A DNA stretch of 64,000 nucleotides from Ligula intestinalis. Its lineage: Eukaryota > Platyhelminthes > Cestoda > Diphyllobothriidea > Diphyllobothriidae. Below are positions 5,261-64,000 of the stretch, piece by piece. Position numbers and translations under genes: made by a program. Under the pieces are notes generated by a model. That model was not told where the DNA came from, made no database searches, and worked only from the letters and a program-made list of their open reading frames with translations. The DNA lies in assembly GCA_036362985.1 (NCBI GenBank), contig JAYGXS010000001.1, forward strand, positions 37,332,484 through 37,396,483, written 5' to 3'. Every line of letters starts with the position of its first letter. Within the stretch, counting starts at the first letter, position 1.

Positions 5261-6885
5261 AGCCGTACCTTCACTGTTTTGCTGCTGTCTGACTACCCAG
5301 AACTCGCGAGACGGTCGCAAGCGTAGACTTGCTAAAATTAGCCGTGACTGCCATTACTCCGGATGAGAGCCGGTGTTCGTTACCACACGCCCCTTACCCA
5401 TCTAACCTCTACTTCTCTGGCCTATATAACTTCTTTTCAGTCGTGTCCACAGCTTTTAACATTGATTTATTTGACAACGTCAAAGACGCGAGCCGCAGGA
5501 CACTCTTACTCCTTTCATGTGTCTCTGGAAATATCATTCACAATGAACGTTATGTTTACATTCCAAATTGCTTCGTTACTCACGCATTTAAGAAGTGGAC
5601 ATTTCGGTGTAACTATATGTCGACTTCGGCCTGACCGGGAATACCGTAGCAATTGACCCCCACGACTTTCATCACCACCGCTTCATCATACTACGCATGC
5701 CCACTGTGCATCCTTTTGTTTCGATTGAAGTTTGTACAATTAAATCTGTTTTTGCGAGCATTTCATCTGCGAACCTTCATATTATCGACCGATGAGTACT
5801 CACGTATCTGTCTCCAATTTCTTCAGCTGAACCTGACACTCTGGTACATTGGTAGAAGTTAGCTCCGACGACAATGAGAAGTGCCATTTCCCCTAGTTCA
5901 TCTTTCAGTGTGAACACTTTTAACACCCTACCGTTCACCACCAACGCTCCCATAACCACCAACGTGGACTTGGTGTTTATCTTTCCGTACTGTGATTACA
6001 CCTTAACAATGCGCATTGGCCTAGTCGGTCATTGGCAAATCCATCGCGGTTGGGCTTGTGAACCAGCATTATAAACATCAATATATACGCATGATAGGCT
6101 GTGATCAGTGCCACGGCGCTGAACCATCTTGCCTTCGACTGCGAAGCCTTGCGCGCCAACTTTATTCCCTGGTCCGTCTAATGGTCGAGTCACAGCTGCG
6201 AAGGATAGACGAGAATTAATTTACACCGTTTCCTGATTGGCTGCAGGCAACAGAGGACATGTTCCGGGTCCCTGTAATCCCGCGCGCACAGGCCACAAAA
6301 TAACTATTGTTCAAAGAAGACGGCGAGCAACACCTGCTCTTGTTTGGCTCTCTCTCACAATAAACACTGTCCAGCCTTACCAGGCTTCCCTGACTTCTGA
6401 TCTGGGGAACTTTTTGTTGTCAAATTTGCCACCTTTTAGCACGCTTGCAGCACCCACCTCCACTGTCCATACCACCAGCGCATTTACAGTCACTGCATGG
6501 GGCTATTCGATCACATGCGCCTTCATGGCTTTCTGCACTCAAACACCGTAATCCAAATCCTATCATCATTATTACCACCGGCAGCAACAGCATGCACAAA
6601 TCCGCTCAACACAACCTACAACAGGCACAGAATAGGTATTTGTTAGTGAGTTTAAAATGTGTTCATATGTGTCAGCTGGTGTCTTACCAGGTCGTGTACG
6701 ACACACTCAAACAGACAGTTTGGCTTCTAGAGCCACCTCTGTCAATCCCAGTCGACTGCCTTGGACAGTAGATTCGTGCAAGTAAGAGAGAAAAGAGGCG
6801 AGGTCGATTTTGAAGACTTCGTCAAGACGACAATTCATCACATTTCGTCCCTGTACACAACTCTATGTACATTTAAACTCTTAGA
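5261..6885. other. Unassigned region
   Basis: Several overlapping open frames of 60-104 codons occur on the + strand, but none has recognisable motifs, splice signals in phase, or homology that I can name. I see no gene here. Confidence 0.4.
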
Positions 6886-6887
6886 CA

Positions 6888-7300
6888 AAAATCATTACCG
6901 ACAAAGAGAACGGAGACTGGCATGACCATTTATGGTCTAATAGCCGTCATTAGCTAACCATGCCCAACCCAAAGTTGTGCCCTACTGCAGGTTCGAACCC
7001 GCAGCCTTATTAGTTAGAAGTCCAACGCTCAAACCACCGACCCATCGGCTCGTTGTCTTGCCGGTTAGAACGTTGGACGTCTAACCAACAAAGTCGCGGG
7101 TTCGAAGTTGGCGTTCGATATAGCTAGGTGATGACGGCTAATACATAGGTCAGAAATGGCCATTCAAATCTCCCTTTTCCCTGTCGGTAATGTATTTCTG
7201 CCTATATTATGCTAGCCGTTAAACGTCTGCTGGTGGGCTGGAGAGCAAGTCCCAAGGCACAATACAACGGAACGAGTGAGATCCATAGAGATCGGTGAGC
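6888..7300. repeat. tRNA-headed SINE-like repeats, head-to-head pair
   Basis: Two copies of the hammerhead-bearing repeat family meet at their tRNA-like heads. The minus copy (about 7,050 back to 6,890) has a GCGGGTTCGAACC B-box-like element, then a degenerate ribozyme block ending in GCCAGTCTCC. The plus copy (about 7,055-7,300) has GCGGGTTCGAA near 7,096, then GATGACGGCTAATA, CAGAAATGGCCATT and the CCCAAGGCA-type tail. Both ribozyme cores are mutated (CTAATGA and GTGATGA for CTGACGA). Confidence 0.7.
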
Positions 7301-8835
7301 GCCAATGCACCATTATTTAACCTGAATATGCACAAAAATGAGTGACTTAGAAGGCTGTCAGCATACGAGATAACCTGGTTATTACAAGAGGAAAAGTAAC
7401 TCTTCAATAACTCACCTTAATGTAACCTTTATAACACACTCAGTCAGATGGGATCTTTTATGTCCCCAATTTGTATGTGTAGAATGGAAGACAGGAAGGA
7501 TTAGAGAGAACAGTTTACTGTTACAGTCTCTCTGTGTACAGCAGCTTATCCGCGTGTACCTCAACTTCTCAGCCTGCGCACTCTCATGTGTGTGGGGGTT
7601 TCTTTGTCATCCTGACCCCAGGACGGCAAGAGTGTTAATCATGTTATAGACCTTCCTAACAGGATTCAAGCCCTTTGTTGTAGTTTTTGTGAACACCTAG
7701 TCCATTTTGTGTGAACTAGGCGTGTGTGGCACCTAAAGGCGGGCTGTTTAACCTCTTCAGCCAGTGCGTCTGGGCTAGCCTCCATACTTTTGGTTCAAGT
7801 GGATGAAGAAGGTGCGTGTGCGGGATTCTGCACAAGACTAATTCATGCTTAAGTCTTCGGCCTACTTCCACCTCGTTATGGGGCAATCGACTGAAATAAT
7901 TTTTGCAACCATTTTTGTTCCGCTGTCTGTTCCTTTTCGTTTTGTCCCAGTTGGTGGCCAGTGCAATTGCTATCGCCTATGAGTCTATCTACTATACTTA
8001 TGTAAGTATACTACTCGCGATGAATGAGTAACCATGTTTATGTACTATTTACCACAACTGACGGCTGCTTCTTTTTCGCTTGCAATCACGTGAACGACCA
8101 CTGTTTGAAGTATTATACTGTATCGATGAATTTTTCAGTCAATATGTCACCAATAGGTAGTCTAAAGGCATTTGCCTATCTTTCTCTCAATAAAACTAAA
8201 ATGAACTGAACTAAATAGAACTGCCATGTGGGCTGCCTAGCCTTACCAGATAATACGATAAAGCCTATGTCAGATCGTTTTGACCTTGTCCTATCATTGA
8301 ATGAAGAAGAGGAGAGTGCGGTAAATGTGCGAGCAAGTGACCAATGTTGCGCTCACTGCCACTCAATCAAGTGGGAACGTAGTGGAAACTTTCGCGTTAG
8401 AACATTAAAAAAGACCAGAAGATGCGGCTGTTAGGCATACCGACGCTTGAAAGAACTACACCAAAGAAAGCAGGAAGATTTGACAATTTTATTCAATGAG
8501 GATGAAGTTATCTAGTGCTGAACTTCCGTTTTGGGGCAGCTGCCGACAAAGTACTTGGACTCATTACTTCTTTTGCTGAACCATGCTTTCTAGCGTGCTT
8601 TTGCAAACGCGACTCACTTATTTTCTATTACACAAAGGCCGCCAGCCTGCGTCTCTTGAGGTCAGTCTCCACATTCAACATCGATTCGGCTGGATTACTT
8701 TCTGAAACAAATCGTAAATAGGGCTCTTTTAACGTCCATGAAGTTGTACTTTCAGTTCTCCTGCAATAACTCAATCTCTAGATCTCTAGATTTCTCCTTT
8801 CAACGTGCCCCAGCAATTCTTGTTTAAGTCTTCTT
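7301..8835. other. Unassigned region
   Basis: No convincing gene, RNA or repeat was recognised. Short open frames near 8,024, 8,228 and 8,515 lack family motifs. The last part may belong to the truncated CR1-like copy that is recognisable from about 8,840. Confidence 0.35.
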
Positions 8836-12205: not shown

Positions 12206-12970
12206 TACAACTCCACAAAGTGAGCGGCTTCTTCAACTTTCTTGACGTAAGAGAGTGCTCGTCAAAACGAGCACTGGGTATTGTCCTATTTCTTTTGACA
12301 TGAATTGGCTGCGTGGATAGCTAATCACACAGAGGCTCCAATAAAGTCACTGCACTTTGGTCTTCCAGCTTTTTGCTTAACTACAGTGTTCCAGAAGTCG
12401 AGTTTGGTGGATGTACGCTTTCGATTATTCACCATAAAGCACTTACAACTATGGAAAGGAGAAAAGTTAAACGAAATCTTAAACATCCAATAAACAGTAA
12501 GTAAAGGGAGTGGATTTGGGGTGTTCAGGGATAAAAGGGGTGGAGTCTAGTCTTGCCAGGAGTTGAGGGAGAGGGAGAGGGGAAGGTGTCCGCCAATTAG
12601 TTCATGTTTCTGTACATGTCTGATGATGAATCGTGTAAAGCGCACGCTCGCTAAAATTGACTTCTCGTGTGATTACATAGGTATCATCACTGAACTGAAG
12701 CGTGACAATGAAGTAGCCTCCCCTGCACGCCCGGCATGAGGTCACGTGACTACAAGAGTTGACTTACCTTTTTGGGACAGTCACATGTTCCGCGCCAACT
12801 CCTGGTTTTCGCCGCCAGCCAGCGTGTGCAAACACACAACAACGTCTGTCGACCTACTCCTTTCCGGCGTAACCCACTAACACACGGAGTTGCCAATACA
12901 AGCAAATATGCGAGTCCCAGGAAGTAATTGAGAAGTAGAAGACAACTCGATCGCTGGGAAACTATTTTTA
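12206..12970. other. Unassigned region between PLE pieces
   Basis: No coding motif was seen. If the endonuclease relic (12.0-12.2 kb) and the ribozyme-like terminus (13.0 kb) are one minus-strand element, this is its degraded interior. Confidence 0.3.
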
Positions 12971-12972
12971 TT

Positions 12973-13016
12973 TGCCTGACGTTTCAAAATCCGTCGCGGA
13001 TTCATCTTCAGAGACA
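12973..13016 (-). ncRNA. Hammerhead ribozyme-like motif in a PLE-type terminus
   Basis: Read on the minus strand: UGUCU (stem I), CUGAAGA core, an 8-nt/8-nt stem II around loop CGA (with a U-U mismatch and a G-U wobble at its base), GAAA, then ACGU and C, then AGGCA, which pairs with UGUCU (one G-U). Stem III would be the palindrome ACGU, which favours a dimeric fold as in other short-stem-III hammerheads. The predicted cleavage follows the GUC. Downstream, AAATAAAAATAG and CCCAGCGATCGA match the tail of the 62-kb PLE. Confidence 0.65.
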
Positions 13017-13029
13017 CACGAAGTCGCGG

Positions 13030-14015
13030 CTGCGCCCACGCCATTGCGTAACCTCTCCCGGGCTGACCAATCACATGCAGAGCTGGGATGGCTGATGCAA
13101 GAAATCACTTCAGACACAGCCCTTTGGCCTATGGACGTGTGCTAGTCTGACAGTCAAATATCCTCCTACCTCTTCTCTATACCTTCTGTACAGAATAAAC
13201 TGTTCCTACTTTGCTGGCCTTTCCAAGACTTTTCTTCTCCTAACGAACTGGGCCTGGAAGATCGTAGTGCCATAGGGTTTATTCTCTTAACCTTAACCCG
13301 CCTCGATAACAGTTTCTCAATTCGCCGATACGGAGCAAGTTAACCTTCATTTTTATGGATGACAGGTTGTTTGCCTTTGCGCAAATTTGGTATTTTTCCG
13401 AATGCTTCTCGTTTCAGACCATAACAACCGTTATGATAGAGAAAGACATGTTGAAAGGCCAACTACTCGATTTTCTCTCTTCTACCGTAAATTGTACGGC
13501 CGGGAAGATGGCGCTAGGTATTCTTTGGATGTCAATACCTGATTCCGCTCGAGAACGTTGAAATTATAATTCAACTGCCGAGCCCAGAACTTTGTTTGTA
13601 TGGTGCTGGAAGACCAGTGGCCCGAACTGCTTTAAACCCACCGCAACTATGAGTATAGCGGTCGGTGGACCAATCGATATGACCTTCATATGCTTACTGA
13701 TTGTTCCCGAATGATTGAATGAATGATTGTTCTCAACTACAAAATACGTTTCGAAACAGAAATTGAGAAGTTGGGGTAGTTGCGTGCGTTCGAGGAGATT
13801 CAAAGTTTCAGTCACATTTACTTCGTAGGGAGTAAGTCACAAGATGACGTAGATCCGCCGGATGTCTGGATGAATGTGATAGCAATAGACACCACGGCTT
13901 CGTTTGACAGGAAATGTACCCCTTCATATCCCTTAAAGAATTGATTTGGTGATCTGACTGGAGTGGCAGTTCAATGGCTCAATGTTCTGTTGGGTGCATG
14001 CAGCAAGCAGCCACA
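13030..14015. other. Unassigned region
   Basis: No gene or repeat was recognised apart from short open frames without motifs. Confidence 0.35.
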
Positions 14016-15194: not shown

Positions 15195-15535
15195 CGACAA
15201 ATTTGAAGATTGCGTTGCCGGCAAACACAGGGGATTCTGGGATAGGCATTTCTAGCTTATTATCCGTCGTCAGCTGGTCATAACCAGCCCCAAGTGGTGC
15301 ACCACACGAGGCTTGAACTGACGACTTTTAACTGGCTGACAACGGCTAATAAACCATAGATGACCATTCCAGTCTCTCTTATCTTGGCCGGCAATATTAT
15401 CTGCCTGTAATATTAGCTGATATAACTGCTGTCAGTGCCCGAGAAGTGAGACCAACAGCAGAGCAAAACAAGTAAGTTCCGTTAGCCGTCAGTGAACGTT
15501 CATCAACGAGTGTCTATCGCAAGGGGTTAAGTGAG
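15195..15535. repeat. tRNA-headed SINE-like repeats, head-to-head pair
   Basis: The minus copy (about 15,325 back to 15,205) carries CUGACGA, a GAUAAUAAGC stem region, GAAA and CCCAGA. The plus copy (about 15,326-15,535) carries ACTGG, CTGACAA, CGGCTAATAAACC, then CATTCCAGT, followed by the CTGTCAGTGCCCGAGAAGTG and CCGTTAGCCGTCAGTG tail. The plus copy has a mutated core (CUGACAA) and has lost GAAA; the minus core is intact but its stems are poor. Both join at the tRNA-derived part, giving a foldback. Confidence 0.75.
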
Positions 15536-18118: not shown

Positions 18119-21100
18119 GTGAGATTTTCTGCCGTTTTTCTGTCTTCAAAGTAGATCCATTTTGAGACATATCCATAGTTTGGTTTAGGAATTTGAGTTC
18201 TCTGTTAAACATAAGTGCATCCTTAAAGGGCTCAAGTACAGATAAGTCATCGAACTGCCCTGTAGAACGTAAATTAAGGCAAATATTTTAAAATGAAAAT
18301 CAACTGACAAGTAAAAAAAAGAAAATGGTAGAATAATATTTTTTTTTACATTGGGAATATTAGATCTAAAATTCAACTACTGATTTTTCAGGAGGAAGAT
18401 AACTTTGTTATTAAGGGCAACTTATGAGAAGAGGCAAAAAGTAATTGAAAATGAAAGAGAAAATTTTAAATGGCATAGTCCGAAACTGAACTGGATAATT
18501 TTTCCAATACAGGCATGCAATATGTGCATATAAAATATAAAGGAGTACTCATATGGTCCTATAAATAAGACAGGAGTAAAAGAACTGCCCGCAATACAGG
18601 GTGCTTTATGCCAAATTACAGATAAATTAGAATTAGGTTTAATGTTATCGTTAGAATGCTAGTTAAGGTTAGGGTTTGTGTTAACTGTAGAATTAAGGTT
18701 AAGGCTAGGGCTAGGAATCAAAGTTGGACTGCGGTTTAGGTCTATGTTTGGACTAGTGTTCAGGTGAGGCTATAGGAATCTAAGCCGTCAGTGTGCTCAG
18801 AGCACTAAAATTATCACGCCTAGTCCCGAAAAGGAAGAGAAGGGGTAAGACCAGTAGGAGTTGTTTACTGTATAGAAAAACTCAGTGGTGGTCTGAAGCC
18901 CCTACACGCGGCAGGCCCAGGCTCTGCGCGCACGTCTGTCTGCTAGCGTGCTATGGTCGTGAACGTATAAACGTCATGCGATAGTAAGTCACTAGCCGCT
19001 TAATCATTTGCTTGGCCAATAGCAGCCTATGGCACCTGTGATTGGCTGTCCGAGAAGCAGATAGAGGAGCGCACTGACGGCTTAGACTTCTAAAAATTGA
19101 TGACTCGTGATTCGAACACGCAACCTTCTGACTCCAAGGCCACGAGAATACTTGCCCTTTCTGGAATTATGCACAGAGCCACCCTTATAACATGTGTGGG
19201 GGGTTTACATTCCGGTTTTCTGTTCAGGAAGCCCTATAAGCAATCCTAACCTATAACGTTTGTGTTAGAATATAAAGTAAATGTCACCTAATATAAATAG
19301 TGTTTGCCGGCGTTCGGCTTCTATTTTTGTCCAATTTTTGAACATTGTCCATTTCAGGTAATATGGCCGGCTCCGGTGTATATGTGCTCACGGGTACGGT
19401 GATTCGCGATAAAGCTGGCCCCGCCACCTTTCTTTCTTACCTGATTGCCGGCATTACGGCCTTTCTCAACGCCCTCTGCTACGCTGAGTTGGGATCGAGA
19501 ATCCCAAAGGTATGTCCTTCCTAAACTCCTCTTTTGATTTTATTCCCCTGAAGACTGGATGTATTTGCGTTCAGTCAGCTGTGTGCCGTAAACAAGAAAC
19601 CTGTGGTCCCTCCGTAAAAACTAAGAATTTGTTTATTTTTCATTAGGTAATTATATTATAAAGAGAGCCTACAGCTAGAATAATCGTATACATGCAAGGC
19701 CTAGATTTATGTATTGGACAGGCTCGTTACTTATTAAGTGTAAAGATCAAAATATGATAGAAGTTTAAGAAAACTAGTTCAATAAATTCTCATATGGTAT
19801 TGGGGCCAGGTAGAAAGCCTGTGACCAATAAGGAAGATAAGTAAGGTTCATCTCTTCATGCAAATGGGATGGGAAGAATATTGAGGATAATTAGAAGCAA
19901 TGCATACCAATTTGCTCAAGTGATGATGGCTAGTGCGCATACAGATAGGATTAAGAAGAGCTGTTTCAAGGGGAAGGACCTGCAGAATTACATAAAAATA
20001 AAGTACATTTGGCCATAGCAAATCCAGGACCCTTGTAAAGTTCCTCTGTCGTCCTATGACTGGTTTACCTTACCGGATTATATCCACTTCCACTTCTTCC
20101 AGTAGGCGATGCCCCAGTGTTTTAGGTTAGTTCGGTGGGACCTTGAAAATTACCAAGAAAGCTTCTATGGGCTCACATATTGTCCGGAATCAAAAATGCG
20201 TGCAAGGATGGCATTGCTAACTTTCGTACTCTCTTCTTTCGTCACAGATGCCAGAAGACAATACTGTAGTCTTTTTGGTAGGCACCGAATCCCACTCCAC
20301 TGGAGCAAACAGAGGTGTACATGCACATGGATTTGGCCTGAGCAGATAATCCATCCTTACCTCGTGTAAAATAGGATGGGTTGTAAATGCTACCTGATTC
20401 ATGCTGCTGAGGAATTTCATCACATAGCTGGGTCAAGGCACCTTTTCAGGAGGTCATTTGTCGGGGTTCGCTTGAAATGGGACTTTGAGGAACAAAAGTG
20501 AATAAGTTTTCTTTCCTGCCGTCAGCACGGTAAATTTGCTGGTCCTGACTCTAGCTGAAACCAAGGGATAGTAATATGGATATCGCGCGACGGTTATCCT
20601 CGACTTTACTCCCCAGTACTCACAATATGGATGGCAGGTGCTACGACCGTCAGATATGACTCACTAGTTGGCCCGTTCAAGTCACTTTCTTCAGCACCAT
20701 ACGCTCCGCTCCCCGGACGCAAAAGACGATAACTACCACGTGTCCTGGGGAATGGGTGCAGCATAAGTGTCTAGCACGTGAAGCAGTTCATTCGAAGCAA
20801 AATTGTGCAGCATCTACCGCACTTTTCTCATCTGCCTTGTCCCAATGTCAAGATGGCGGAAGAGGGAGCAGGCGCATTGACTTGCGGAGCTCGAGAGCTC
20901 GTCTATGCGAGTCACACACGACATGTGCAATAGGCTACCGTGAGGACGACTCGAAATTTCCACGGATGAAAATACCGAGAAGGCCGCATAACGAAGCAGC
21001 CATTGTAGTCCAAGGATCAGTCGTGATTAGGGCGTTAGACTCTGATCAAAAAGGTCGCGGGTTTGAGGTTTGAGTGCTGCACCACTTGAGTCCGGGCACG

Positions 21101-24100
21101 ACTAGCTGACGACGGCTAATAAGCCAGAAATGGCCAGTTTAGTCTCCCTTGACTTTTTCGGCCTTAATATCTGCCCGTACTGCTAGCTGCTACAGCTGCT
21201 GTCAGGACGCGAGAAATTAGGCCCAAGGCAAAGACGCAGTGGAAGAAGTGGGTTCCGTTATCAGTCGGCGAACCTTCACTAACGAGCGGCAAACTACGCC
21301 ACTGAATAGCGACCATGCAGCGGAGCACGGATCCATTCACCTCCGGCCACACAAACTTCTGACTGACAATCAAACCAGGGAGTAAGATTTTTATATGCCA
21401 ACCAGCCCCGTTTAATGAATATAACTATCTTACGACCAGATACTACGTTCGTGCCTGTTGACAAATTTGCCTATCTGACAGTAAAATATGAAGACTGCTA
21501 AGAGGACCCTGTTTTCCTTCCGCTTACCCCATTTAGTTTCATTTTGCTTAACAGTTCTTCAGTCACGAGTGCAAACACGCCATTCCTTTTATGTAAAGTA
21601 TATCTTTGCACAACAATCATACTTCTATATGCCAGACTGAGGTGTGAGGTCCTCTTTTGAACTTTCGTTTTTAACTAGCATGCTTTTTCTTTCACTTCAC
21701 CCCCTTGAAACTGGATTCCCGTTTCCTTCAGGCCGGTTCCGCTTACGCCTACACCTACATTGCTAGTGGAGAGTTTATGGCCTTCGTGATTGGCTGGTCC
21801 GTTCTCCTGGAATACGTTTTGTCCGTGGCTAGCGTAGCCCGAGGCTGGAGCGGTACCATTGATGCCATGTCACAGTCCAAAATTAGCAACGGAACGATTT
21901 CAGTCTTCGGCAGGTAAATTCGGTGAATGGCAGCTATCCTTGGCTGGATTTAGTCCCCCATCCAACATTTTATGCCGTTTTCCAAAAAAGCTCGCTGGAC
22001 ACGGAAGAATATATGGCCTCTTTATTAGGAAACTAAAATCGCTTTTATGAACGTTCACCTGACCGCTAACGGAGCTTGTCTGTCCCGATCTGACAGCTGT
22101 AACAGCTCGTAGTCGAGGCCCAAGGCAGAGCGGGACAGACGAGATCCGTTAGCGGTCAGGTGAATGTTCATCAACGAGTGCCAATACCCCCTGACCTAAA
22201 CCGGGGAGACAACAAGCGTTTAGCTCAATTTTCAGGGTGTTTGACTCTTATCAAAAAGGTCTAGACTTCAAGGCCCGGGGGGTGCACCACTTGGGGTTGG
22301 ATATGACGGGCCGACGACGGATAATAAGGCAGAAATGGCCATTCCAAACTAGAATCTTTCGAATAGAAACACTCCACCCGAATAATAAAGGTGATCCTGC
22401 ACATAAGTTCGGGAATGGTAAATATTTCTCTATCCGAACCCTGACATTAGCCCTAGCGTAGCCCTAAACTGCAGCTGGAATCTTCATCCTAATCATACCT
22501 GAAGCCCTTATCCTGCGGCTACTACTAACCCTGACCTTGAGCCTAAACCTAGCGCTAACTTACCTTAACTCCCATCTTTAACCTAACCTCAAACCTTACC
22601 TTAACTCATACATTAATCCTATTTTACCGGCATTTGGCGTATTGTGGGCCGGTCTAGGTTTTATGTCCGGTTTAGGAGGCCATACAAGTCATCTTTACCA
22701 GAATATGTTTCCAGGCGTTTAAGAAATGCATAAAATAATACCAGTTATCAACCATAACGCATAGATTTCGTTTACGTGTTGAGGGTTTTAAAACTGTTTG
22801 TTTTTTCAGTCTTTTGACATTCTTCATTGATCTGCGATTTTTAATTAGGAGAACAGTTCGAATCAATATTTGGCAAACTGACAATCATATTGATAATAAT
22901 TTTGGGGAGGGGAGATTGGGATTAGTAAATAATATCTACTTAACAAACTCTCTCTCTTTGATCCTTTTCCCCTGAAACAGATTTCCGGGCAACAACGAAT
23001 TTCTCGGCCAGTACCCTGACTTCCTCGGAGCTGCTACTGTCATTGTATTGGGACTCGTGCTGAGCTGTGGTGCAAAGCTGTCCGTTCGTGTCAACTCCGT
23101 GGTCACCATTCTGAATCTGAGTGTCATTCTCGTCGCCACCACCATTATGTTCGCCCTACCGAATCCCGAGACGAGCGGGATTGCGCCCAGTTCACATGGC
23201 GGATTTCTGCCCTACGGATTTGGTGGAATGATCGCCGGAGCGGGCACCTGTTTCTACGCCTTCATCGGATTCGACGCGATCACAGTCAGTGGGGAGGAAG
23301 CGGTGGATCCCCAGCATTCCCTCCCAATTGCCACGGGAGTTTCAGTGTCTCTGATCACCATCATCTTCGTCCTAGCTACATCTAGCCTGAGCCTCTTCGT
23401 ACCCTGGTGGACTGTGGATCGACAGGCTGCCTTCACAGGGGCCATGCGTGCTCGAAATGTGCAGTGGGCCACTTACGTGACGGGAATCGGCTCCCTGCTG
23501 GGCATTGGAGCCAGTTTGTTCACCAGCCTCTACGCCATGCCGAGGATAGTCTACGCAATGGCCGCGGATGGTCTCCTTCCAGATTGGTTGGGATACGTTC
23601 TGCCCTCGACTCGGGTAATCCATCCTTTTGGCAGCTCTTACAGATGATCACTATTTTTTAGCATGAAATCTACTAGCATAGGTGCGTTTTAGACCTTGTG
23701 GAAAATATGTAATTTTTATGAAAGATTATGCGTTTTGACATGACAGACCAATCATCCGTCCTTCTCCTTTGGAACGATAATCTGCCTAAAGAGTCACCTT
23801 CTAGCTAAATACTAACGGTCGCTGTTAGACAATTTTGCTGTAGTAACCGGGTTGAAAGTGGGACTCTTTCATCTCGTGCTTTCCTGTACGACAGAGCAGG
23901 GTTATGCCAGGCGGCTGATGAATCTTTGATCGTGAGCAATATTCTCCATGTCACAATGCCGCCATGTTCCATGGCATTTTCGTTGTTCCTCGATTGGTCA
24001 GATCTGCAGTCAGTTAAGTCAGTGGTACTGCTGGGCACGTTCCACGACTGCTTCCTTTATACAGCAAGTGAGCTATCACATGAAAGACCCCGCAATGTAC

Positions 24101-30100: not shown

Positions 30101-33100
30101 CGCGATCTCTGGCACAATAGTTGCATTCTGAGCTTTCGGCTCCACATGAGAAGCCAGCGTCAGAGTCAATGAAAACAGCAAACGTCAGCTACGCATAAAT
30201 GGGGTTGGTAAGCGAAGGGGGGGGAGGCAGTGACAATTATTGATTTGTCTCTGTCCATGCTACGTCCATTCTCATGCTATATTATCGTGTTCCCGACGCG
30301 CGCCCCTGGAGTAGCCGCGTGTAACCTTGAGGTGGTGGTCTGTATGCTTGTAGAGGAGCTGGGCCCTGGTTTCTGGTCACGGGCACGGAGGGCAAAATAA
30401 CAGGGTGGTATATCCACATGCCTGTTTATGGAGTTGTGACCTGACACCCAGGCCTCCAGCAGTTCGCGTTCCGGCCTATTACTGGCTCATGCCATTATCC
30501 GTGTATTCGAGAAGTCGAATTCATGGCCCTCCTTCAGAGTGTGGGAAGCGATCTGGGACTGTGGGTCGCCTTTCCGTACTGTCCGTTTGTGCTCCTTTAT
30601 TCGCGGGCTAAGTCATCGCCCGGTCTGCCCTGTATAATAGCAAGAACATTCACGACATGGCACCTGATAAATGACGCCGGACTGCTCACCAACATCCAAG
30701 GGGTCTTTGGTTTGCATGATTCGTGTACGCATAGTAGCTATCGGGCGATGAGCAATACCCACACCGAGCTCTGCGGCGATGCGCTCGGTTGCTTCTGACA
30801 CGTTTTAAATGTATGGTAGAGGGTGCCAGAGCGTTGGTGGTCCCCTTTCGTTTGTTCTCCGAGGGCGCGTTCAGAGGCAGCGGTTGATGAAGCTGTTCGG
30901 GAATCCATTCCTGGCCAGTTGGTCCCGAAGATGTCGTAACTCTCACACTCGTCCTTCCGGCTTACTGCAGTGCGCCTTCACCGTCTGAAATGGGGTTTGA
31001 ATACAGCCACGTTTATGCGTTATTGGGTGGTTGCTATGGGAGCTGAGCACCTGGGTTGTGTTAATCGACTTTCTATAAACCGTGGTGCTGAGGTCCCCGT
31101 TGAGTCGGCGCGTGACGAGGACATCGAGGAACGGTAGTTGTCTGGCACTCTCTTCCTCCTTTGTGAATTGGATGTCAGGGAAGATACTATTAAACAGGTT
31201 TTGGAAGTCTGCTAGCCTGTGATGTTCGATTATAACGAAAGTGTCGTCCACGTATCGGTGCCAGAATGCAGGCTCAAATTGGTCGAAGGCGGCTTTTTCC
31301 AGCTCCTGTAAGACCAGTTCTGCGATGAGACTGGAAATAGGGGATCCCATCGGCGTCCCTTTGGTCTGTTCGTATGTTTGACCATTAAATGTGAAAAAAT
31401 TCCTTTGGCAGAAGACGAAGAGTTGCATGAGATGGTCAATTTTTAGGGGACCTCTCGATTCATCATATTTCTCTTCGAGTCGTTTGCGTAGGACGTCACG
31501 TGCCAGGTCCGGAGGGATAGATATGAATAGTGAAACCACATCAAAAGATACCATGGTTTGATCCGGTTGAACCGTTCTACTCCGGATAGCGCCTAGAAAT
31601 TGGGAGGCCGAATTGATTGAGGTTGTCGAACCCTCTCGGAGAAAGTTTAGTTTCCGTGACACCCATTTAGCTAGGTTGTAAGTAGGGCTGCCTTTTAATG
31701 CCACGATTGGCCGGAGTGGAACGTTGGGCTTGTGGATTTTGGGCAATCCGTAAAATCGAGCCAGTGCCGTGTCAGTTAGTTTGGTTTGTCACCATTCGTC
31801 TTGTGATATCACGCTGCTGCGTCGGAGCCGGCTCAGGAGACTAGTGAGCTGCCTGATCAGCGATTTAGCCTGGGAGAAATGCGTGGGTTTGTCGGCTTGT
31901 TGGTCGTCGAGGAGAGCTTGAGCTTTTGCGTTGTAATCGCTACGGTCCATCACGACCATTGCTCTTCCCTTGTCGGCCGAAAGCACTATTATGTCCTTGT
32001 TCATTTTTAACCTCTTAATCGCCTCTTCTTCCACTGGTGACATTTTATTAGTGGGCCTATTCGTCATTTATAGGGAGGTGACTTTCTGGCATACTGTATG
32101 TTTCGCCTCGTCGGTTGCATCGGTCCGTACGAGCATGGCTTCCAGTGCCGCGATAACTTCGGCTGGCTTAGCATCTGCCGTATTAAAGTTGTTTTTCTGG
32201 CTCAGTACGCTTAGTTCTATTTCTGTCAACTGTCTAGTTACTCTTTCTTTGGAACGCTTTGCTAAAGAAACATGCATATACAAGATCCGGCTTTGATCCT
32301 TTTCGTATATATTCCTCATAAACAGTACTTAATGCTACACATGGAGACGATAAAATGCCACCATATTTCGAAGATGTTGTGCACTCAAAATTCTTAATGT
32401 CCCCTTTTTTGCAGGTACCAGTAGTGGCTATGGCACTCTTTGGTGGAATGGCGGCCGTGTTGACCTTCCTCTGCGATATCCATACGTTGGCAGAATTTCT
32501 GAGCATTGGAACCCTGATCGCCTATACTATTGTCTGCATGAACGTGTGCATCCTTCGTTACTGTCATAAGGATACTGCCCCTACGAGTGAAACTTCAGCA
32601 TTGGCCACCCAAATGGAGGTGAGAAATTTGTTTACTACAAACAGAACTTGGTAAAAATTTAATAAGCCGGTTTAACCAGACTTCGGTCAGAAGCCAGAAC
32701 ATGTTTAATCTCACTTTTTTGTAGTACCGGTGACAAATTTTAATCCGCATTCCTTGCAACGCGGCCCACACTCTTGAAATTAGCTGAGAACAGTGAAGAA
32801 TCGACTATCCTTTCCAGTGAATAACAAATGGAACATTTATTACCGGCAGAGACAAGGGAGACTGGAATGGTCATTTCTGGCTCATTGGCCGTCGTCAGCC
32901 AGTCATACTCAGCCCCAAGTGGCTTTCCATCCGAGCCTCGAACTCGCGGCGTCTTTGATCAGAGTCAAACGCCCTAAACATTGAGCCACGAGCTTGTTGT
33001 CCCGATGGTTTAGGTCAGAGGATATTGACGCCCATTTATGAACGTCCACTTGACCGCTGACGAAACTCATCTGTCCCGCTCTGCCTTGGGCGGAATATTC

Positions 33101-42279: not shown

Positions 42280-43985
42280 TCCTGCCTGGTTGACGAGACA
42301 CCATAACAGGCAACTGAAGAAGAAGTATAGGAAATGGAAGTTATTCAGGAAAACTGGGTCACCAGTACACGTCGAGGAATTCCGACGCCAAAGAAATGCA
42401 GTAAAAAAATCAATGCGCCAGGCCAGGAAAAACTATGAAACAAGAATCCTCCAACAGGCGGAAGAAAAGCCCAAAATTATATTCCGCTATGTAAACAGTA
42501 GATTAAAAACAAGGATCCTGTCGCATTACTTAAGAATGATGATGGCGGAGAAGTCGTTGAGAATGACGAGAAAGCCGAGTACTGTAGCCAGTTCTTTGCC
42601 TCGGTATTCACTAGGAAAACCGAGCTTCATTTTGATAATGCCAACAGTGCTGTTGTAAACGCCGGTCCAGCACTTCATTCTCTACTATCTCCAACATCTG
42701 TAGTAGAGAGGGAGCTGCAGAGCCTCAAAGAAGCAAAGTCATCCGGTATAGACAATATACCACCCAAGTTCTTGAAAGAATTAACAAGCGAACTCTCAGA
42801 ACCCCTAGCACATATCTTTCGTTCTTCATTTGAACTAGGAAAACTGCCATCTGAATGGAAAACGGCAAATATTTACCCGATATACAAGGGTGGAGCCCGA
42901 ACGAAGGTCAACAATTACCGGCCCGTCAGCTTAACTTGCATTTGCTGTAAGGTGATGGAAACGATAGTTAAGAAGACAAAAATGAAGTACTTGGAGGAGA
43001 ACAACCTACTGTCAGGGCTCCAACACGGCTTTAGAAAGAACCATTCTTGCCTTTCCAGCCTTTTACTTTCCACTGAGCAGTGGACTCGCGCACTAGATGA
43101 AAATGGTAAGGTTGACGTCATCTATACGGACTTCAAGAAGGCATTCGACAGCGTCCCACATAAGCGTCTAATGTATAAATTGTCAGAAATTGGCATAAGA
43201 GGAAACCTGCTGGCATCGATCACAGATTTTCTCACAGGGCGATCGCAAACTGTGTGCATCGGAGACTCAAAATCAAACCCTACATCTGTTCTGAGTGGCG
43301 TCCCCCAAGACCCTGTCTTAGGGACACTGCTCTTCCTTATCTATATCAACGACTGTGTTAACGACCTGGGTTGCAGCCCTATCATGTTTGCCGACGACGT
43401 CAAACTCTGGAGAGCCATCAGGTCTGACGCCGATAGGAAAGCGCTTCAAGAGAGTCTCAATCGACTTAGCTGCTGATCTGCTCATTGGCTTTTAAACTTC
43501 AACGTTATTAAGTGTGTGGTTTTAAGACTCTATGCTAGAAGGACTGATGAGGAGAACGATTCCTTCGAATACCTCCTCGATGGGCACCCGCTTTCAAATT
43601 TGAACGAACAGAAGGATCTCGGTGTTTGAATAAATTCCTCACTTAAACCATCTACTCAGTGTGTTAAGGCAGCTAAACGCGCGACACAGGTGCTGTTTGC
43701 GATTAGGCGGGGATTCGTCAACATTGACAAGGAAGATGTGGTCCTCTCAGATACTGTTGACATTTATAAAACACAAACTTGATTCTCATTTGCTAAGAAA
43801 CTCTGGCAGATGTAATGAACAAAGTGTCAGTAGCAGCACCTTGCTACTGGCTCACACTTATCGCTGATGTTAAGCCTACATTTGTACATTTGTTTTATGT
43901 TCTATTGTTACGGTGGACCTATTACGCGATTTTAGTTATGAATAGGGAGCTCAAGGGCGACAGCCTTCTTCCCTTAATAAAGTGA
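42280..43985 (+). mobile_element. Non-LTR retrotransposon, 5'-truncated (CR1/Jockey-type RT)
   Basis: Starts inside the ORF upstream of the reverse transcriptase with a basic linker (KKYRKWKLFRKTGSPVHVEE..RQARKNYETRIL), continues through the polymerase (42,772-43,476) and thumb, and ends with an FIKHKLDSHLL tail (about 43,765-43,800) and a CCCTTAATAAAGTGAC 3' end. The endonuclease is missing. Frameshifts occur near 42,550-42,760, a stop at 43,474, and an apparent deletion near 43,765. It lies between the two host genes. Confidence 0.85.
42772..43476 (+). pseudogene. Reverse transcriptase of the 42-kb non-LTR element
   Basis: A 234-codon open frame: LPSEWKTANIYPIYKGG and NNYRPVSLT (fingers), QHGFRKNHSCLSSLL, VDVIYTDFKKAFDSVPH (motif A), SGVPQDPVLGTLLFLIYIND (motif B) and PIMFADDVKLWRAI (motif C, catalytic FADD intact). 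The invariant QG of motif B is QD here, a likely inactivating change. The frame stops at 43,474-43,476. Confidence 0.88.
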
Positions 43986-44781
43986 CTTAAGCAACGATCC
44001 TTATGCGATTTTCCTGATTACGGAAGGCATTTTTTACAGTCTAATTTTGTAAGCAGTCATACCAACAATCCCCCTATCAATCGAAATCGGCTGGACAAAC
44101 CTCGTTGCAATTGTCACCATGTTTTCTTCTTATTTCTTCCTACGAATAGACCATTTCGGTATTGACACTCGTTGATAAACGTTCACTGACCGCTAAACAG
44201 CAAAGGGAGTTAAAAGAAAACACCACAGTGGCAAGTATTTTAACTCAAACCACTGCAATAAATATTGCTATTCTTACTATTTTACCAATTTGGCAGTACT
44301 TTCATGCAAGTGTGTTTCTTTTTTCGCTTTGAATAGTATTTGTATTATTTGGCATGGAAACCGCATTTTTCGGCCGAATGTCGGTGGTATTGGTTAATGA
44401 ACGGATAATTTCCATCAGTTTCTCTCAGTTTCCCCACTGTTTTCTGATTGGCTCAAGAGACATGCCTGACTTTTGCGTCTTTTGAGCCTTTCTGCGTGTT
44501 GTCGCTATTGTGCGTATGATTTTTAACCGTTCCTTTTGTTGCATATTTTTATAACTGACTATTAAACACTCAAACTCTGGTTTCCACCTTTTTCGTTATA
44601 GTGTCTCGTGTTGTTTCCTGTTCAAATTTTTATCCTTAAAATTAAAAATTTCATTTATAGAAAACTTCATACTTGATCAATTACTTGGTTAAGGACGGTT
44701 GCCCATTTTTTTCGAAAGAATTGCAACTTGATTTTTTCAAGCGGCATTTTTGAATTCGACTGCGCCCAGTTGATACCGGAG
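43986..44781. other. Region upstream of endosulfine; contains one SINE fragment
   Basis: Includes a 44-base minus-strand fragment of the SINE-like tail (44,157-44,200; CACTCGTTGATAAACGTTCACTGACCGCTAA region). The rest should hold the endosulfine 5' UTR and promoter; no core promoter element was assigned. Confidence 0.45.
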
Positions 44782-47800: not shown

Positions 47801-48714
47801 ATAGGCATCAGTTGTCTGAGCAAGAGGAGTTTATGTTGATGCAGTTGATTCTATTGGGTACATCGAAACAAATATACGTTTTGAGAAGGGGAATTTTTGA
47901 ACACTGGAATAATCATTTTATTGGCCTGAGCTTTCGGGCTCCTGCAGGAGCCCATCATCAGAGTAAGGAAAAGCAGCAACAAATGAGGTGGCTAGTCCTG
48001 GCGTGTGCACAGAACAGCCAAAATTTGAACGGGCATAAAATCAAGAATTGTGGGCTTTTGCCGTTGACTAACCACCTCATTTGTTGCTGCTTTTCCCTAC
48101 TCTGATGATGGGCTCCTGCAGGAGCCCGAAAGCTCAGGCTAATAAAATGATTATTCCAGTGTTCGAAAATTCTTCTGCTCAAAATATTCACGTTCCTGGA
48201 ATGCGAACATTCGCCTCAATTCGTGAAATATACGTTGCTTTAATTCAGTTTTTTTTGTTCACTTCCAACACACTTAGATGTTTTATATTCCTGACCAAGA
48301 ATTACATGTGTGAGCACAAATTGCGCACGAAAGTCAGCCGGAGGAAATATATTTGAATGGTCGTACAAGACAGTTTTGCCCCCTTAACTTCCATCTTCTG
48401 AGCCCCTTGTTTCCGTTTTGCCGTTTCAGATAAAGTACTTCGATTCTGGCGATTATAATATGGCCAAGGCCAAGTTACCCTCAAAGGATTTAGGCAATTG
48501 TGCCAACCCCGCAACAGGTGCTGCGGAAGTATGTGTGGCTCCCCCGGAGGTCTCCACTGGTGACACCATCCCGACTCCGGACAACGTGCCCGCGGTACGT
48601 AAGAAAGCGATGCAGGCCATGTGTACTGCTGAGCACGCCGGTCCAGTCCGCCTGCCTCCCGGTTCGCCCACCAAGCCCGCGGCCGAGTCCGCCCTCTTCA
48701 GCGGCAGTCACTAA
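44782..48714 (+). CDS. Alpha-endosulfine/ARPP19-family PP2A-B55 inhibitor, 3 exons
   Basis: Exons 44,782-44,817; 44,851-44,946; 48,430-48,714 give 138 residues with phase 0 junctions. ENSA/ARPP19 proteins, when phosphorylated by Greatwall/MASTL, bind and inhibit PP2A-B55 to allow mitotic or meiotic entry. Family signatures: a helical [12 protein letters not shown] segment, LLQKRLNK, the core [14 protein letters not shown] (Greatwall site Ser50) and [12 protein letters not shown]. The C-terminal PKA site of most animals (RKSS/RKTS) is RKKAM here. The C-terminus is longer and Pro/Ala-rich compared with vertebrates. Total length is close to the usual 110-135. Confidence 0.9.
44851..44946 (+). 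CDS. Endosulfine exon 2
   Basis: Residues 13-44: [20 protein letters not shown], then [12 protein letters not shown]. This matches the AKLKAKYP....G..FL.KRLQK helix that precedes the FDSGDY core. Acceptor TTATCTAG, donor GTGCGT. 96 bases, phase 0 at both ends. Confidence 0.87.
44947..46805 (+). other. Endosulfine intron 2, 5' half
   Basis: AT-rich intronic DNA. No gene, RNA or recognised repeat was seen before the PLE endonuclease fragment. Confidence 0.45.
46811..47155 (-). pseudogene. PLE GIY-YIG endonuclease fragment in endosulfine intron 2
   Basis: The minus frame from 47,155 reads [20 protein letters not shown] and [19 protein letters not shown], then [18 protein letters not shown] and [14 protein letters not shown]. 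It fits the flatworm PLE pattern (CGAKYIGRT.RRL..R..EH.P.WL, SDHRVD...AF..IYKV, AEA..IK). YIG is changed to NMG and the loop is altered, so it is inactive although the frame is open for 172 codons. Confidence 0.65.
47925..47964 (-). ncRNA. Hammerhead-like motif, left arm
   Basis: Minus strand: CUGAUGA (47,961-47,955), U, perfect seven-pair stem II GGGCUCC/GGAGCCC with UGCA loop, GAAA (47,935-47,932), GCUC, AGGCC. Stem III would be the palindrome AGCU. Stem I is poorly paired (about two pairs). Confidence 0.5.
48100..48140 (+). ncRNA. Hammerhead-like motif, right arm
   Basis: Plus strand: CUGAUGA at 48,102-48,108, U, GGGCUCC (48,110-48,116), UGCA, GGAGCCC (48,121-48,127), GAAA (48,128-48,131), GCUC, AGGCU. 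Same architecture as the left arm. The extra U at the base of stem II recurs in the 30.1-kb copy. Confidence 0.5.
48430..48714 (+). CDS. Endosulfine exon 3 (core motif and stop)
   Basis: Residues 45-138. Acceptor [28 protein letters not shown] carries the invariant FDSGDY motif with Greatwall target Ser50. [20 protein letters not shown] is the second conserved block, without the usual PKA serine. The tail [24 protein letters not shown] has no counterpart that I recognise. TAA at 48,712-48,714. Confidence 0.93.
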
Positions 48715-54084: not shown

Positions 54085-54480
54085 ATCATTTAAAAATAAA
54101 TATTTAGTTGACCCAATTGTGAAAAAACTCGCGGCGTTCGGCTGTTATCGAAACCGCATAGGAGGGGAGGCCTTCTACACAAGCCAACGCTCTACCTACT
54201 TAAGCTACGAATGCCACGCTTCACACCGTGACTTTAAGCGCGCTTGGATCGATATCACCCGCCCAACTTTGCCGTATTTATGGAATCCACTAATACGGAA
54301 CAGCAAGTTGACTGCCCAAGCAGGATTTTCTAAGCGTGGCATTTGTAGCTCAAGTGGGTAGAGCGTTGGCTTGCGTAGAAGGCCTCCCCTCCTATGCGGG
54401 TTCGAATCCTGCCGAATGCTGTGAGTTTTTTTTTACAACTGGGTTAACTTTAACTTAATCTGCCAAACTTCCTAAGTAAA
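54085..54480. repeat. Inverted pair of tRNA-like SINE copies
   Basis: The plus copy (about 54,343-54,480) has a tRNA-like body: acceptor GGCATTT pairs with GAATGCT, D-arm GTAGCTCAAGTGGGTAGAGC, T-arm GCGGGTTCGAATCCTGC, but the anticodon arm does not fold cleanly. The minus copy (about 54,225-54,085) repeats it inverted, including the (A/T)-rich tail with TACAA(C/T)TGGGT. Likely tRNA-derived SINEs rather than functional tRNA genes. Confidence 0.7.
54343..54420 (+). tRNA. tRNA-like sequence (probable pseudogene/SINE head)
   Basis: Seven-pair acceptor (two G-T wobbles), good D and T arms, intact A and B boxes, but no convincing five-pair anticodon stem. Isotype is therefore not assigned. Confidence 0.35.
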
Positions 54481-59897: not shown

Positions 59898-59936
59898 TAC
59901 ACCGATAAGGCTTATGCCTCTGTAATTGCTGCACGT

Positions 59937-61700: not shown

Positions 61701-61960
61701 GCTAGGTCCCCGGTCTTGCTCCCCTACCAGAGCCCCGTTAGCCAAGCAAAAGCAAGTTTCCGGCGCGCATTACCGTGGAGGCGGGGTTGGATTTTACGCA
61801 TGATAAAGCCTCTGATTAGAGCTTAGAAAGTGTAATTTCGGATAAATTGGAATAAGTTCATCTATGCTCAGGGGTATTTTTCGTGAGTAGATGTCTTGCA
61901 TGATGTCTTCCTTTATTTAAAGTGCTAGGGCTATCATAAGAAGACGAAGCGATCACTGGA
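61701..61960. other. Spacer between RTE-like element and PLE
   Basis: Possible 5' UTR of the RTE-like element and 3' tail of the PLE. No further feature. Confidence 0.4.
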
Positions 61961-61974
61961 ACCAGCGTTTTATT

Positions 61975-62016
61975 TTCCTGTTGTTTCGCATTCCGTCGTG
62001 AATTCCTAATCATAGG
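61975..62016 (-). ncRNA. Degenerate hammerhead-like PLE terminus
   Basis: Minus strand: CUAUGAUUAGGAAUUC, ACGACGGAAUGC, GAAAC, AACAGG, then AAAAUAAAACG and CCAGUGAUCG. It aligns base for base with the 13.0-kb motif, but the CUGANGA core and the GUC cleavage triplet are lost. It lies just 3' of the PLE below. Confidence 0.5.
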
Positions 62017-62029
62017 TAATCAGAGAAAA

Positions 62030-64000
62030 GTCTGAGATATTCGCAGATAAGGGTGATGCATGCACAGATTACACGTATTTATAGTTGGTAGCGGTCATCT
62101 GCGTGCGTACTATAATTGTCAGGTCCTGTAGCCACCGCTTGAGGTCTTAATTGGTGCGGCGATGGCTCATTAATTGCCACAGTGTTCGTGTCCGCGTTGG
62201 ATGCGGGCCTGATAATTGCGCGACAATTATGTCCGCTGTCATCAGCGTTGTTGCTGCACCCAGTCCTTCCCACGCGACTGATTCTGCTGCTCAGGAAATC
62301 TCTCAGTACACTGTATGGGAACGCTTGTTGATGGACTGGGGGCCTGAGAACCATGAGTCGAGCAGCTCGCGGCTCACACAGTTGTTACCTCTGTTGAGGA
62401 TTTCTGCATCATCAAACTTAAAAATATGGCTGGGTCCCGTCGAGTGAGCTGCAACTTTGGAGTTGGCGTCTTTCTTCCTCACCACCACTGCATGCTCGGA
62501 CATTCACGTCCCGAGTTATCTCCCGGTTTCTCCGACGTAGTTGCTTTGTCCACAACTGCACCAGATCCGGTAAACGACTCCAGCCATTTCCTGCCTTGAC
62601 AGTTGGTCTTTCGGCCTCATGACCCGGTGTCTAATGGATGCTTCTGGCCCGTGCGCGACTCCAAATCCAAGGGGAGGATTAGTGAAGAGTACACGGAAGT
62701 TTGCTGCCGGGAAGGCAATCGTGACTGCTGTCCTCAAGCGTCGTCTTACCAGTTCACTTGCTGGTTCTCCTATAAAAGGCAGTCTTATGAATAGATCTTT
62801 CTTTTCCGCCGTTGCAACTGCGGACTTTGTGACACGCTCCTTGATGTTCCGAAGGATGAAACTTTCTGGATAACCATTTTCATGGAGTGTGTTTTGTAGC
62901 TGCTGCAATTCTACTTCCACTATTTCAGGAGAGCAGATACGGCGTATTCTGGCTGCCATTCCCTGGACTGAGTTACGCTTGACGTTAAGGGGTACGAAGC
63001 TGTGGCAATTAATTTGCTGCCTTGTCCAGGCTTTCGTTCTAAATATTCGGCTTTTTATTGAGCTATCCTCTTGTCTGTGTAAGAGGACTTCACGGAAAGC
63101 GAGTTCGTTGTTTTCCTCTGTTTCCGCTGTAAATGTTAGCGCTGCGTGGGCCGTATTGAATTTTTGGACTAGACCATCGATATCAGTGGTCTTATTTGTC
63201 AGGCAAATTATATCATCCACATATCGACCATAGATCTTCAGGTAATCGATAGTGTCTTTGAGCCTTGTTTCCTCGAGCTGGCCAATGAAGACATTTGCGA
63301 GGAATGGTCCAAGTGGTGAGCCCAGTGCCACTCCGTCTATTTGCCTGTATAGCCGGCCATAACATACAAACTGTACGTTTTGTGTACAGCACGTCAGTAT
63401 TTCTTTCAGCATCTCCACTGTCATCCCTATCTGCTTGTTTGTTTCCCGTATGCAGTCGCATAGGTACTCCATGGTTTCGAGTACCGGTACGTTGGTGAAC
63501 AGTGAAGATACATCTAGTGACAGCATCGTCGTTTCGTTAATGCTCGTAGCCTTGATAGCCTTGACGAATTCTAACGTGTTTTTAAGGCTTTTAAGGTACA
63601 GGCGGCTCTGAAGTGACTTTAACTTTTCGACAAGTTATTTTGCCACGGCGTGGTACGGTGACTTTCTCATGTCCAAGATAGGACGAAGTGGCGCGCCTTG
63701 TTTATGAATTTTCGGGAGGCCATACATTCTTGGGATTGTAGTACCAACCGGCCTTAGTCCCTCGAGCTCCTTGTTCGATAAAAGTTCTTCTTTGTGGAGC
63801 TCTTTAAGTAAATTTGTTATTTTTTCTTCAACGGCCTTCTCCGGTCCTTGTCTTTATCGGATTTTGAGAATTTTGTCCGATCCAATAATATTTCTTCCAG
63901 TTTCGCTACATAATCATTCTAGTCCATCAGCACAATTCTCGAACCCTTGTCTGGTCTTGTAAGCAATATATTTTCCTTTTGGCGAAGCTTTTGAGACTAT
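62030..64000 (-). mobile_element. Penelope-like element, cut by the window edge
   Basis: Minus strand from the right edge: KTRQGF.N..DG and KILKIR-type N-terminal relics with a frameshift near 63,850, then LPKIHKQGAPLRPIL, the long reverse transcriptase and endonuclease frame (63,526-62,516) and the endonuclease end (62,503-62,303). Only two stops separate the last two parts. It is the least decayed PLE here. The lineage differs from the 30-32 kb PLE. Confidence 0.88.
62303..63526 (-). pseudogene. PLE reverse transcriptase-GIY-YIG frame
   Basis: A 336-codon open frame: MLSLDVSSLFTNVPV (motif A), IDGVALGSPLGPFLANVFIG (motif B), IYGRYVDDIICLTN (motif C, catalytic DD intact), ELAFREVLLHRQ, a connector, then VVYRIWCSCGQSNYVGETGR of the GIY-YIG endonuclease. 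After stops at 62,513-62,518 and 62,504-62,506 the end continues MSEHAVVVRKKDANSKVAAH and RELLDSWFSGPQSINK with the catalytic Glu. The polymerase looks intact in this segment; N-terminal breaks near 63,640-63,900 make the whole element defective. Confidence 0.88.

Follow-up and report, generated by a model that had tools for sequence, protein, structure and literature searches.

A tRNA-headed hammerhead repeat family in the tapeworm Ligula intestinalis with an insertion pattern in common with Penelope-like elements

A hammerhead-like repeat and its genome-wide families

We analyzed a 64,000-nucleotide (nt) stretch of the Ligula intestinalis genome (contig JAYGXS010000001.1, positions 37,332,484 to 37,396,483; henceforth the window), which carries copies of a short non-coding repeat with a transfer RNA (tRNA)-like head and a hammerhead-like core, here called family B, together with Penelope-like elements and their fragments (Table 1). 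A hammerhead-like core had been predicted on the minus strand at 32860..32904. The coordinates proved exact, and the order of elements could be read directly from the sequence: GACTGG (32904-32899) and CTGACGA (32898-32892) are followed by a stem II hairpin and GAAA, then by the near-palindromic TGACCAT, a T, and CCAGTC (32865-32860). The predicted cut would fall between 32866 and 32865. All of the copies named in the original prediction, which counted at least seven, were recovered by BLAST within the window, and comparison with the full unit listed nine family B pieces, the smallest at 22044-22092 and 44160-44196.

The family B unit is 303 nt long and was derived from 39 genome loci, some overlapping or duplicate; the first search of the 644-Mb assembly met 5092 candidates, scored 40 of them, and gave a list of 46 matches. 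The unit was drawn as a circle because copies start and stop at varied places and some are longer than one unit. Its order is tRNA-like head, hammerhead, tail. The head, also part of the original prediction, was backed by the Rfam tRNA model, which passed its cut-off of 29 bits in one genome copy (L016, 30.7 bits) and matched at an expectation value (E) of at most 5 in 5 of 16 loci; the 18 bits at 32939-32995 are under that cut-off. ARAGORN at default settings found no tRNA in the consensus. Pieces exceeding one unit numbered 32 in family B and 15 in a sister family, A; the longest mapped piece was 744 nt at 66% identity, and the retrieved flanking sequence contained no long tandem arrays.

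Across the genome, the core pattern CTGANGANGGCTAATAAGCCNGAAA was found 2986 times, against 0 in a reversed control, and the core with the family B stem II sequence is carried by at least three families (A, B, and C). Family A is a hammerhead repeat with a 368-nt unit, whose stems I and III differ from those of family B. It is without a clear tRNA head, no tRNA being called at default settings, and among the copies sampled it was less diverged than family B (median identity 96% vs 85%). Its loci are L050-L074, L099, L108, L110, L111, and L119-L139. Family C (loci L055, L060, L066, L067, L107, L109, L111, L114, and L117) has a different tRNA-like head, and its stems are as in family B but with CCGGUC. 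At L111 (~914-1021), a family A hammerhead continues into a family C tail, as if by template switching between RNAs.

The hammerhead core and its stem II mismatch

The family consensus keeps CUGANGA, GAAA, the U-H cut site, and stems I-III in hammerhead order, and in 44 chosen copies its helices (two parts of stem I, plus II and III) were 82-98% paired. Known hammerheads strongly prefer G-C at the base of stem II. Among the 2986 exact cores, this position holds C·A in 1131 and A·C in 1193, together 2324; C·A is the family B consensus and A·C that of family A. Watson-Crick pairs were seen there in 16 of the first 100 listed cores (U-A 10, C-G 3, A-U 2, and G-C 1). Since G-C is so strongly preferred in known hammerheads, ribozyme activity is uncertain, and the dominant C·A or A·C may leave the ribozyme slow or dead. 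Judging from the sequence, we consider the case for and against self-cleavage of the consensus RNA to be evenly balanced. CpG decay was rejected as the origin of C·A: the adjacent core CpGs are retained, and A·C is present in the sister family.

The covariance search suggested in the original prediction gave a divided answer. Rfam hammerhead models showed no match to family B in scans of the window, of small stretches, or of nine family B and C loci. Rfam Hammerhead_HH9 (RF02275), which shares the helix order and core of family A, aligned to 5 of 7 family A loci with 20.6-25.4 bits (E 0.04-1.4), below its gathering score of 52. A model built from 19 chosen family A copies (R1) matched the window copies at 21.1, 32.9, and both 15.2-15.4 kb with E-values of 4e-5, 1e-4, 0.005, and 0.058, and did not match those at 22.3 and 6.9-7.3 kb. 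R1 is not independent of the core because family A was found through the core pattern. Within family B, pairing decays and shows no covariation above shuffles, as dead copies would. Between the family A and B consensuses, four stem I/III pairs are changed on both sides with pairing retained.

Folding predictions were obtained for both core and unit. The minimum-energy fold predicted for a single 55-nt core is not a hammerhead; for two cores together, the prediction is a double hammerhead linked by the AUGGCCAU palindrome (-45.5 vs 2 x -16.8 kcal/mol). The predicted fold of the linear consensus is far stabler than those of shuffled sequences (z -6.07; 0/100 shuffles as stable). Insertion 5' ends lay within 3 nt of the predicted cut in 0/142 family B pieces (3.3 expected) and 0/71 family A pieces (1.4 expected), so run-off from a simple cut monomer was not seen in these small numbers.

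Two preferred 3' ends in retrozyme-like repeats and Penelope fragments

The original prediction saw neither the stem II mismatch nor two further features of these repeats, namely preferred 3' ends and inverted pairs. Copy ends were mapped by script; the copies were either best hits or came from the first 22 Mb of a single chromosome. In family B, 3' ends concentrate in two windows, E1 (unit 160-184) and E2 (unit 266-285), which were chosen on the same data: 97/142 pieces end within these 14.9% of the unit. The other 45 include 16 family-C-like rows, without which the count is 97/126. Family A ends are sharper, with peaks at 177 and 301 and 64/71 within windows spanning 11.4% of the unit. The 5' ends are widely scattered, with a weak excess at E1/E2 (26/126, p 0.05, without the family-C-like rows; 26/142, p 0.15, for all rows), and many pieces run through both sites. 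The hammerhead sits just upstream of E1, with 31-41 nt from the predicted cut; E1 lies about 40-55 nt after GAAA (39-49 for the commonest positions in family B, 39-52 in family A, and 45-60 in Penelope fragments), and the E1 to E2 stretch is ~102-124 nt in the retrozyme-like families.

Head-to-head inverted insertions were frequent (35 in family B and 21 in family A, 56 in all). In most classifiable pairs, one arm ended at E1 and the other at E2: mixed pairs outnumbered same-site pairs by 23 to 2 in family B and 12 to 2 in family A (pooled 35 vs 4, p 2e-7), while 17/56 pairs had one or both arms ending outside the windows. Family B loci taken after the sites were noticed are a cleaner test because the windows had been noticed on the first sample; they gave 10 mixed pairs and 1 same-site pair among 15. 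At the inner junction, arms overlap in 20/35 family B pairs, a count with no chance control; the overlap of 5 nt at L018 is as expected from microhomology. The summed arms of 26 mixed family B pairs never fell below 295 nt (unit 303; 0/26 below 290, permutation P 0.01). In a subset based on the core (13 pairs, P 0.25), the suggested minimum of roughly one circle was not upheld.

The insertion sites of family A are (TA)n, the first 5 nt beside its ends being 0.88 AT against a background of 0.53; at family B targets the AT enrichment is slight (about 0.6 vs 0.55). A minority of inserts, 9/70 compared with 2.4% by chance, are flanked by duplicated target sequence of at least 7 bp; one of the nine (L038) is probably artefactual. 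The family B junctions examined are without a simple-repeat tail.

Fragments of Penelope-like elements in the same genome show the same two-site pattern. The window holds two Penelope-like open reading frames (ORFs) with reverse transcriptase (RT) sequence, each with a hammerhead-region fragment downstream (Table 1). Among the best 120 of 680 matches, the named relatives closest to the ORF at 62519-63634 were from Sparganum/Spirometra (64% along the full ORF and as much as 73% in three quarters of it), followed by single matches of 45% and 53% from two other tapeworms and by flukes at ~34-45%. Judged from this one mobile-element protein, the host would be a tapeworm, probably a diphyllobothriidean. 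Pfam made no GIY-YIG call in the Penelope fragments of the window, and the domain fell below the Pfam cut-off in the relatives P0095 (E 4e-4, 1.4 bits short) and P0001 (E 0.02). About 10% of related tapeworm genomes is Penelope and about 1% is short interspersed element (SINE) sequence, according to an excerpt of PMC8166898.

Penelope hammerhead-region fragments were counted in the window and in the loci fetched for the retrozyme-like families, and a genome search with the fragment at 12880..13030 gave 3547 first-look candidates, of which 40 were scored, with 48 matches. In a count made by hand, with rows aligned to a second query placed by their distance from GAAA, 16 of 44 informative rows end at E1p, 19 at E2p, and 9 elsewhere. 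The 40 main matches were picked by score, which favors the longer arm and leaves partner arms free; the neighboring head-to-head pairs were mixed in 7/7 cases, six of them re-mapped. Direct repeats of 10-12 nt, identified by eye, border the Penelope inserts at L140-L142.

Some details of the Penelope fragments stand apart from these counts. The pair at 47879-48230 has a perfect 7-bp stem II, with one unpaired U separating CUGAUGA from it. At the inner junction of head-to-head Penelope-type fragments in L015 (739-845), a long near-perfect hairpin matches a microRNA model at 40.6 bits. By eye, the family C end GATCCACTTCTTC looks like the Penelope E1p end GATCGAGTCTTCTTCT. Two more RT fragments lie at 42502-43476 and 58638-59936; the former was rejected as a Penelope source, being of the long interspersed element (LINE) kind.

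Table 1. Features of the window (coordinates relative to its first nucleotide).
Feature	Position	Strand	Evidence or detail
Hammerhead-like motif: stem I GACUGG/CCAGUC, CUGACGA, stem II, GAAA, short stem III	32860..32904	-	Sequence; model R1 25.7 bits, E 1e-4
Single family B copy, 253 nt of the ~303-nt unit	32838..33090	-	89% to consensus; 3' end 32838 = unit 164, inside E1 window
tRNA-like head	32939..32995	-	Rfam tRNA 18 bits, under cut-off
Family B copy, hammerhead core 21106-21130	21024..21292	+	3' end at E2 (unit 280); model R1 27 bits, E 4e-5
Head-to-head family B pair	22044..22346		Minus arm 22044-22092 ends at E2 (unit 270); plus arm 22093-22346 ends at unit 139, unclassified
Head-to-head family B pair	15207..15517		Minus arm 15207-15325 ends at E1 (unit 170); plus arm 15331-15517 ends at E2 (unit 281)
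Head-to-head family B pair, pieces 6882-7066 and 7031-7301	6882..7301		Minus arm ends at E1 (unit 175); plus arm at unit 262, just beyond E2 window
Penelope-like element: RT and start of GIY-YIG-like motif	62519..63634	-	RVT_1; motif GVVYRIWCSCGQSNYVGETGR by eye
Penelope-kind hammerhead-region fragment, downstream of 62519..63634 ORF	61939..62015	-	Ends at E1p (TCTTCT)
Second Penelope-like ORF, remains	30616..31788	-	RT 30946-31788; GIY-YIG-like motif by eye 30616-30804
Penelope-type hammerhead-region fragment, downstream of 30616..31788 ORF	30103..30181	-	Similarity stops short of E1p
Head-to-head pair of Penelope-type hammerhead fragments	47879..48230		Cores 47932-47961 (minus) and 48102-48131 (plus); right boundary inferred from E2p position
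Penelope-type hammerhead fragment	12880..13030	-	Genome query
Amino-acid permease exon	22976..23647		AA_permease_2
tRNA-Tyr gene, anticodon GTA	54339..54420		Probable intron

Probable mobilization by Penelope-like elements and its alternatives

Copies of the families have the Penelope insertion format: head-to-head arms, one with an extra tail, and short target duplications. We think it probable that family B is a ~303-nt, tRNA-headed, non-coding metazoan retrozyme of the Smα kind that is mobilized in trans by Penelope-like elements. The tRNA-like head is assumed to be an RNA polymerase III promoter that would drive transcription. The RNA, predicted to be tightly folded, would then serve as a circle or multimer, because copies run beyond one unit length. 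From the footprints in the genome, we infer that a Penelope-like RT with a GIY-YIG endonuclease would cut both target strands and prime complementary DNA (cDNA) at the two preferred internal sites observed, E1 and, ~100 nt further, E2. In paired inserts, E1 would serve one strand and E2 the other, and head-to-head joining of the two cDNAs would probably proceed through microhomology; many inserts would retain one arm.

Three published systems, cited here from excerpts of the papers, come close to this arrangement. The original prediction had compared the repeat with the schistosome Smα hammerhead SINE. The tRNA-headed Smα design is well supported. Smα and Sjα likewise combine a tRNA-derived head with a type I hammerhead and reach very high copy number, and the anticodon loop of the family B head reads CTG (Gln) by eye, the S. 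mansoni element being reported as tRNA-Gln-derived (PMC2770079). The conserved C·A in stem II makes the cleavage part of that comparison uncertain, and, set beside Smα by description, family B also differs in its tapeworm host and its head-to-head, two-site insertions. Metazoan retrozymes without long terminal repeats (LTRs) resemble these families in their non-coding unit of 150-450 nt, type I hammerhead, copies over one unit, and strong self-pairing (PMC7229834); unlike them, family B has a tRNA head, and its copies are mostly short and permuted or inverted instead of long tandems. Hammerhead-bearing Penelope-like elements share the head-to-head ends, with one arm lengthened by a tail, as well as targets that are AT-rich or (TA)n and briefly duplicated, and a hammerhead upstream of the RT starts (PMC11167929; PMC3846280). 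They differ in that the present families are non-autonomous, without an ORF, and have an inter-site stretch of ~102-124 nt compared with about 30-47 nt.

What is reported of Penelope proteins fits such a role. The protein of a lizard Penelope prefers AT-rich DNA and acts on both target strands, cutting and extending each; its RT has two internal start sites, which bound the genomic tail, and insertion in vitro does not depend on hammerhead cleavage (Frangieh et al. 2024, PMC11167929). Penelope elements carry inverted pseudo-LTRs, one with an optional 31-bp tail, make duplications of 8-10 bp, and their pseudo-LTRs mobilize unrelated DNA in trans (PMC3846280). Penelope-like elements have been proposed as strong candidate movers of metazoan retrozymes, with unnamed platyhelminths among the hosts (Cervera and de la Peña, PMC7229834). 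In the open-access PMC literature, as represented by search listings and such excerpts, we met neither a description of this pairing of two sites in retrozymes nor a hammerhead SINE from a tapeworm.

Several points weigh against mobilization of a retrozyme by Penelope. The action of a Penelope protein on these RNAs is deduced from genomic footprints, and those footprints come from selected copies and from windows set on the same data. The start site of the lizard RT is reported to be the same for both strands, and its main start, 111-118 nt inside the ORF, is some 85-92 nt beyond the cut, compared with 31-41 nt here (PMC11167929). Some Penelope families have direct repeats only, some inserts lack duplications, and head-to-head repeats have been attributed to self-priming (PMC3846280). 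No close sequence match was seen between Penelope and family B ends, and family B lacks a strong AT preference at its targets. The two consensus units have GC contents of 55.1% and 52.2%, compared with less than 50% reported for retrozymes. As for the ribozyme itself, the stem II mismatch, the silence of the Rfam models on family B, the lack of covariation, and the absence of 5' ends at the cut count on the same side.

Another possibility, which we hold to be unlikely, is that the hammerhead of both retrozymes and Penelope acts mainly as a docking signal for a two-headed Penelope RT complex and helps to set the E1 start ~40-55 nt downstream. E2 on the same RNA would then prime the other strand, and a paired insertion would represent two cDNAs of one RNA, which we rate at the same low level. 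If this were true, catalysis would be optional, which would explain the dominance in successful families of A·C and C·A, pairs expected to weaken cleavage. The proposal is weakened by the in vitro finding that RNA starting at +20, from which the 5' portion of the hammerhead is missing, is still inserted, so that the lizard protein does not need the fold (PMC11167929).

A classical self-cleaving satellite or retrozyme, whose tandem transcripts are cut, circularized, and reverse transcribed, would make cleavage essential and the ends secondary. The mismatched consensus pair at the base of stem II and the want of 5' ends at the cut site speak against such a cycle, as do a longest mapped piece of only 744 nt and flanks free of long tandem arrays. 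Its design is nevertheless that of published metazoan retrozymes (PMC7229834), and the copies over one unit, the very stable predicted fold (z -6.07), and the double hammerhead predicted for dimers through AUGGCCAU would suit it. We consider it distinctly unlikely as an account that makes cleavage essential; it is compatible with mobilization by Penelope and does not exclude it.

Alternatively, an ordinary SINE could have been moved by a LINE (RTE-, CR1-, or L1-like), with the hammerhead as a passenger and the head-to-head copies arising by twin priming at random sites. Twin priming with microhomology is a trait of L1, and the window contains the LINE-like RT at 42502-43476, whose PDB matches include LINE-1 and R2 proteins. 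The inverted pairs, however, have outer ends at preferred sites, in most cases E1 on one arm and E2 on the other (35 vs 4), which random second priming would not produce. The family B junctions examined also lack a simple-repeat tail, and Penelope fragments have the same two-site pattern. Although LINEs are abundant in related tapeworms (PMC8166898), we regard this explanation as very unlikely.

Least likely of all, and highly improbable in our view, is that E1 and E2 are ends left by RNA processing or transcription termination, or that the inverted pairs arose by self-priming: a pair of discrete 3' ends might reflect two ends of the RNA, 5' ends at E1/E2 do occur (26/126 and 26/142), and self-priming on an antisense template is favored for rotifer Penelopes (PMC3846280), but neither the family A nor the family B consensus unit contains a TTTT run, many pieces cross both sites, mixed end pairing within one insertion is left unexplained, and Penelope RT starts internally in vitro (PMC11167929).

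These repeats extend tRNA-headed hammerhead SINEs from flukes to a tapeworm, and they are naturally occurring hammerhead families in which A·C or C·A takes the place of the expected Watson-Crick pair. With its thousands of non-coding hammerhead cores, and with copies whose two preferred ends are paired by the rule also seen in Penelope fragments, the L. intestinalis genome provides a footprint test of Penelope-like elements as the movers of retrozymes.

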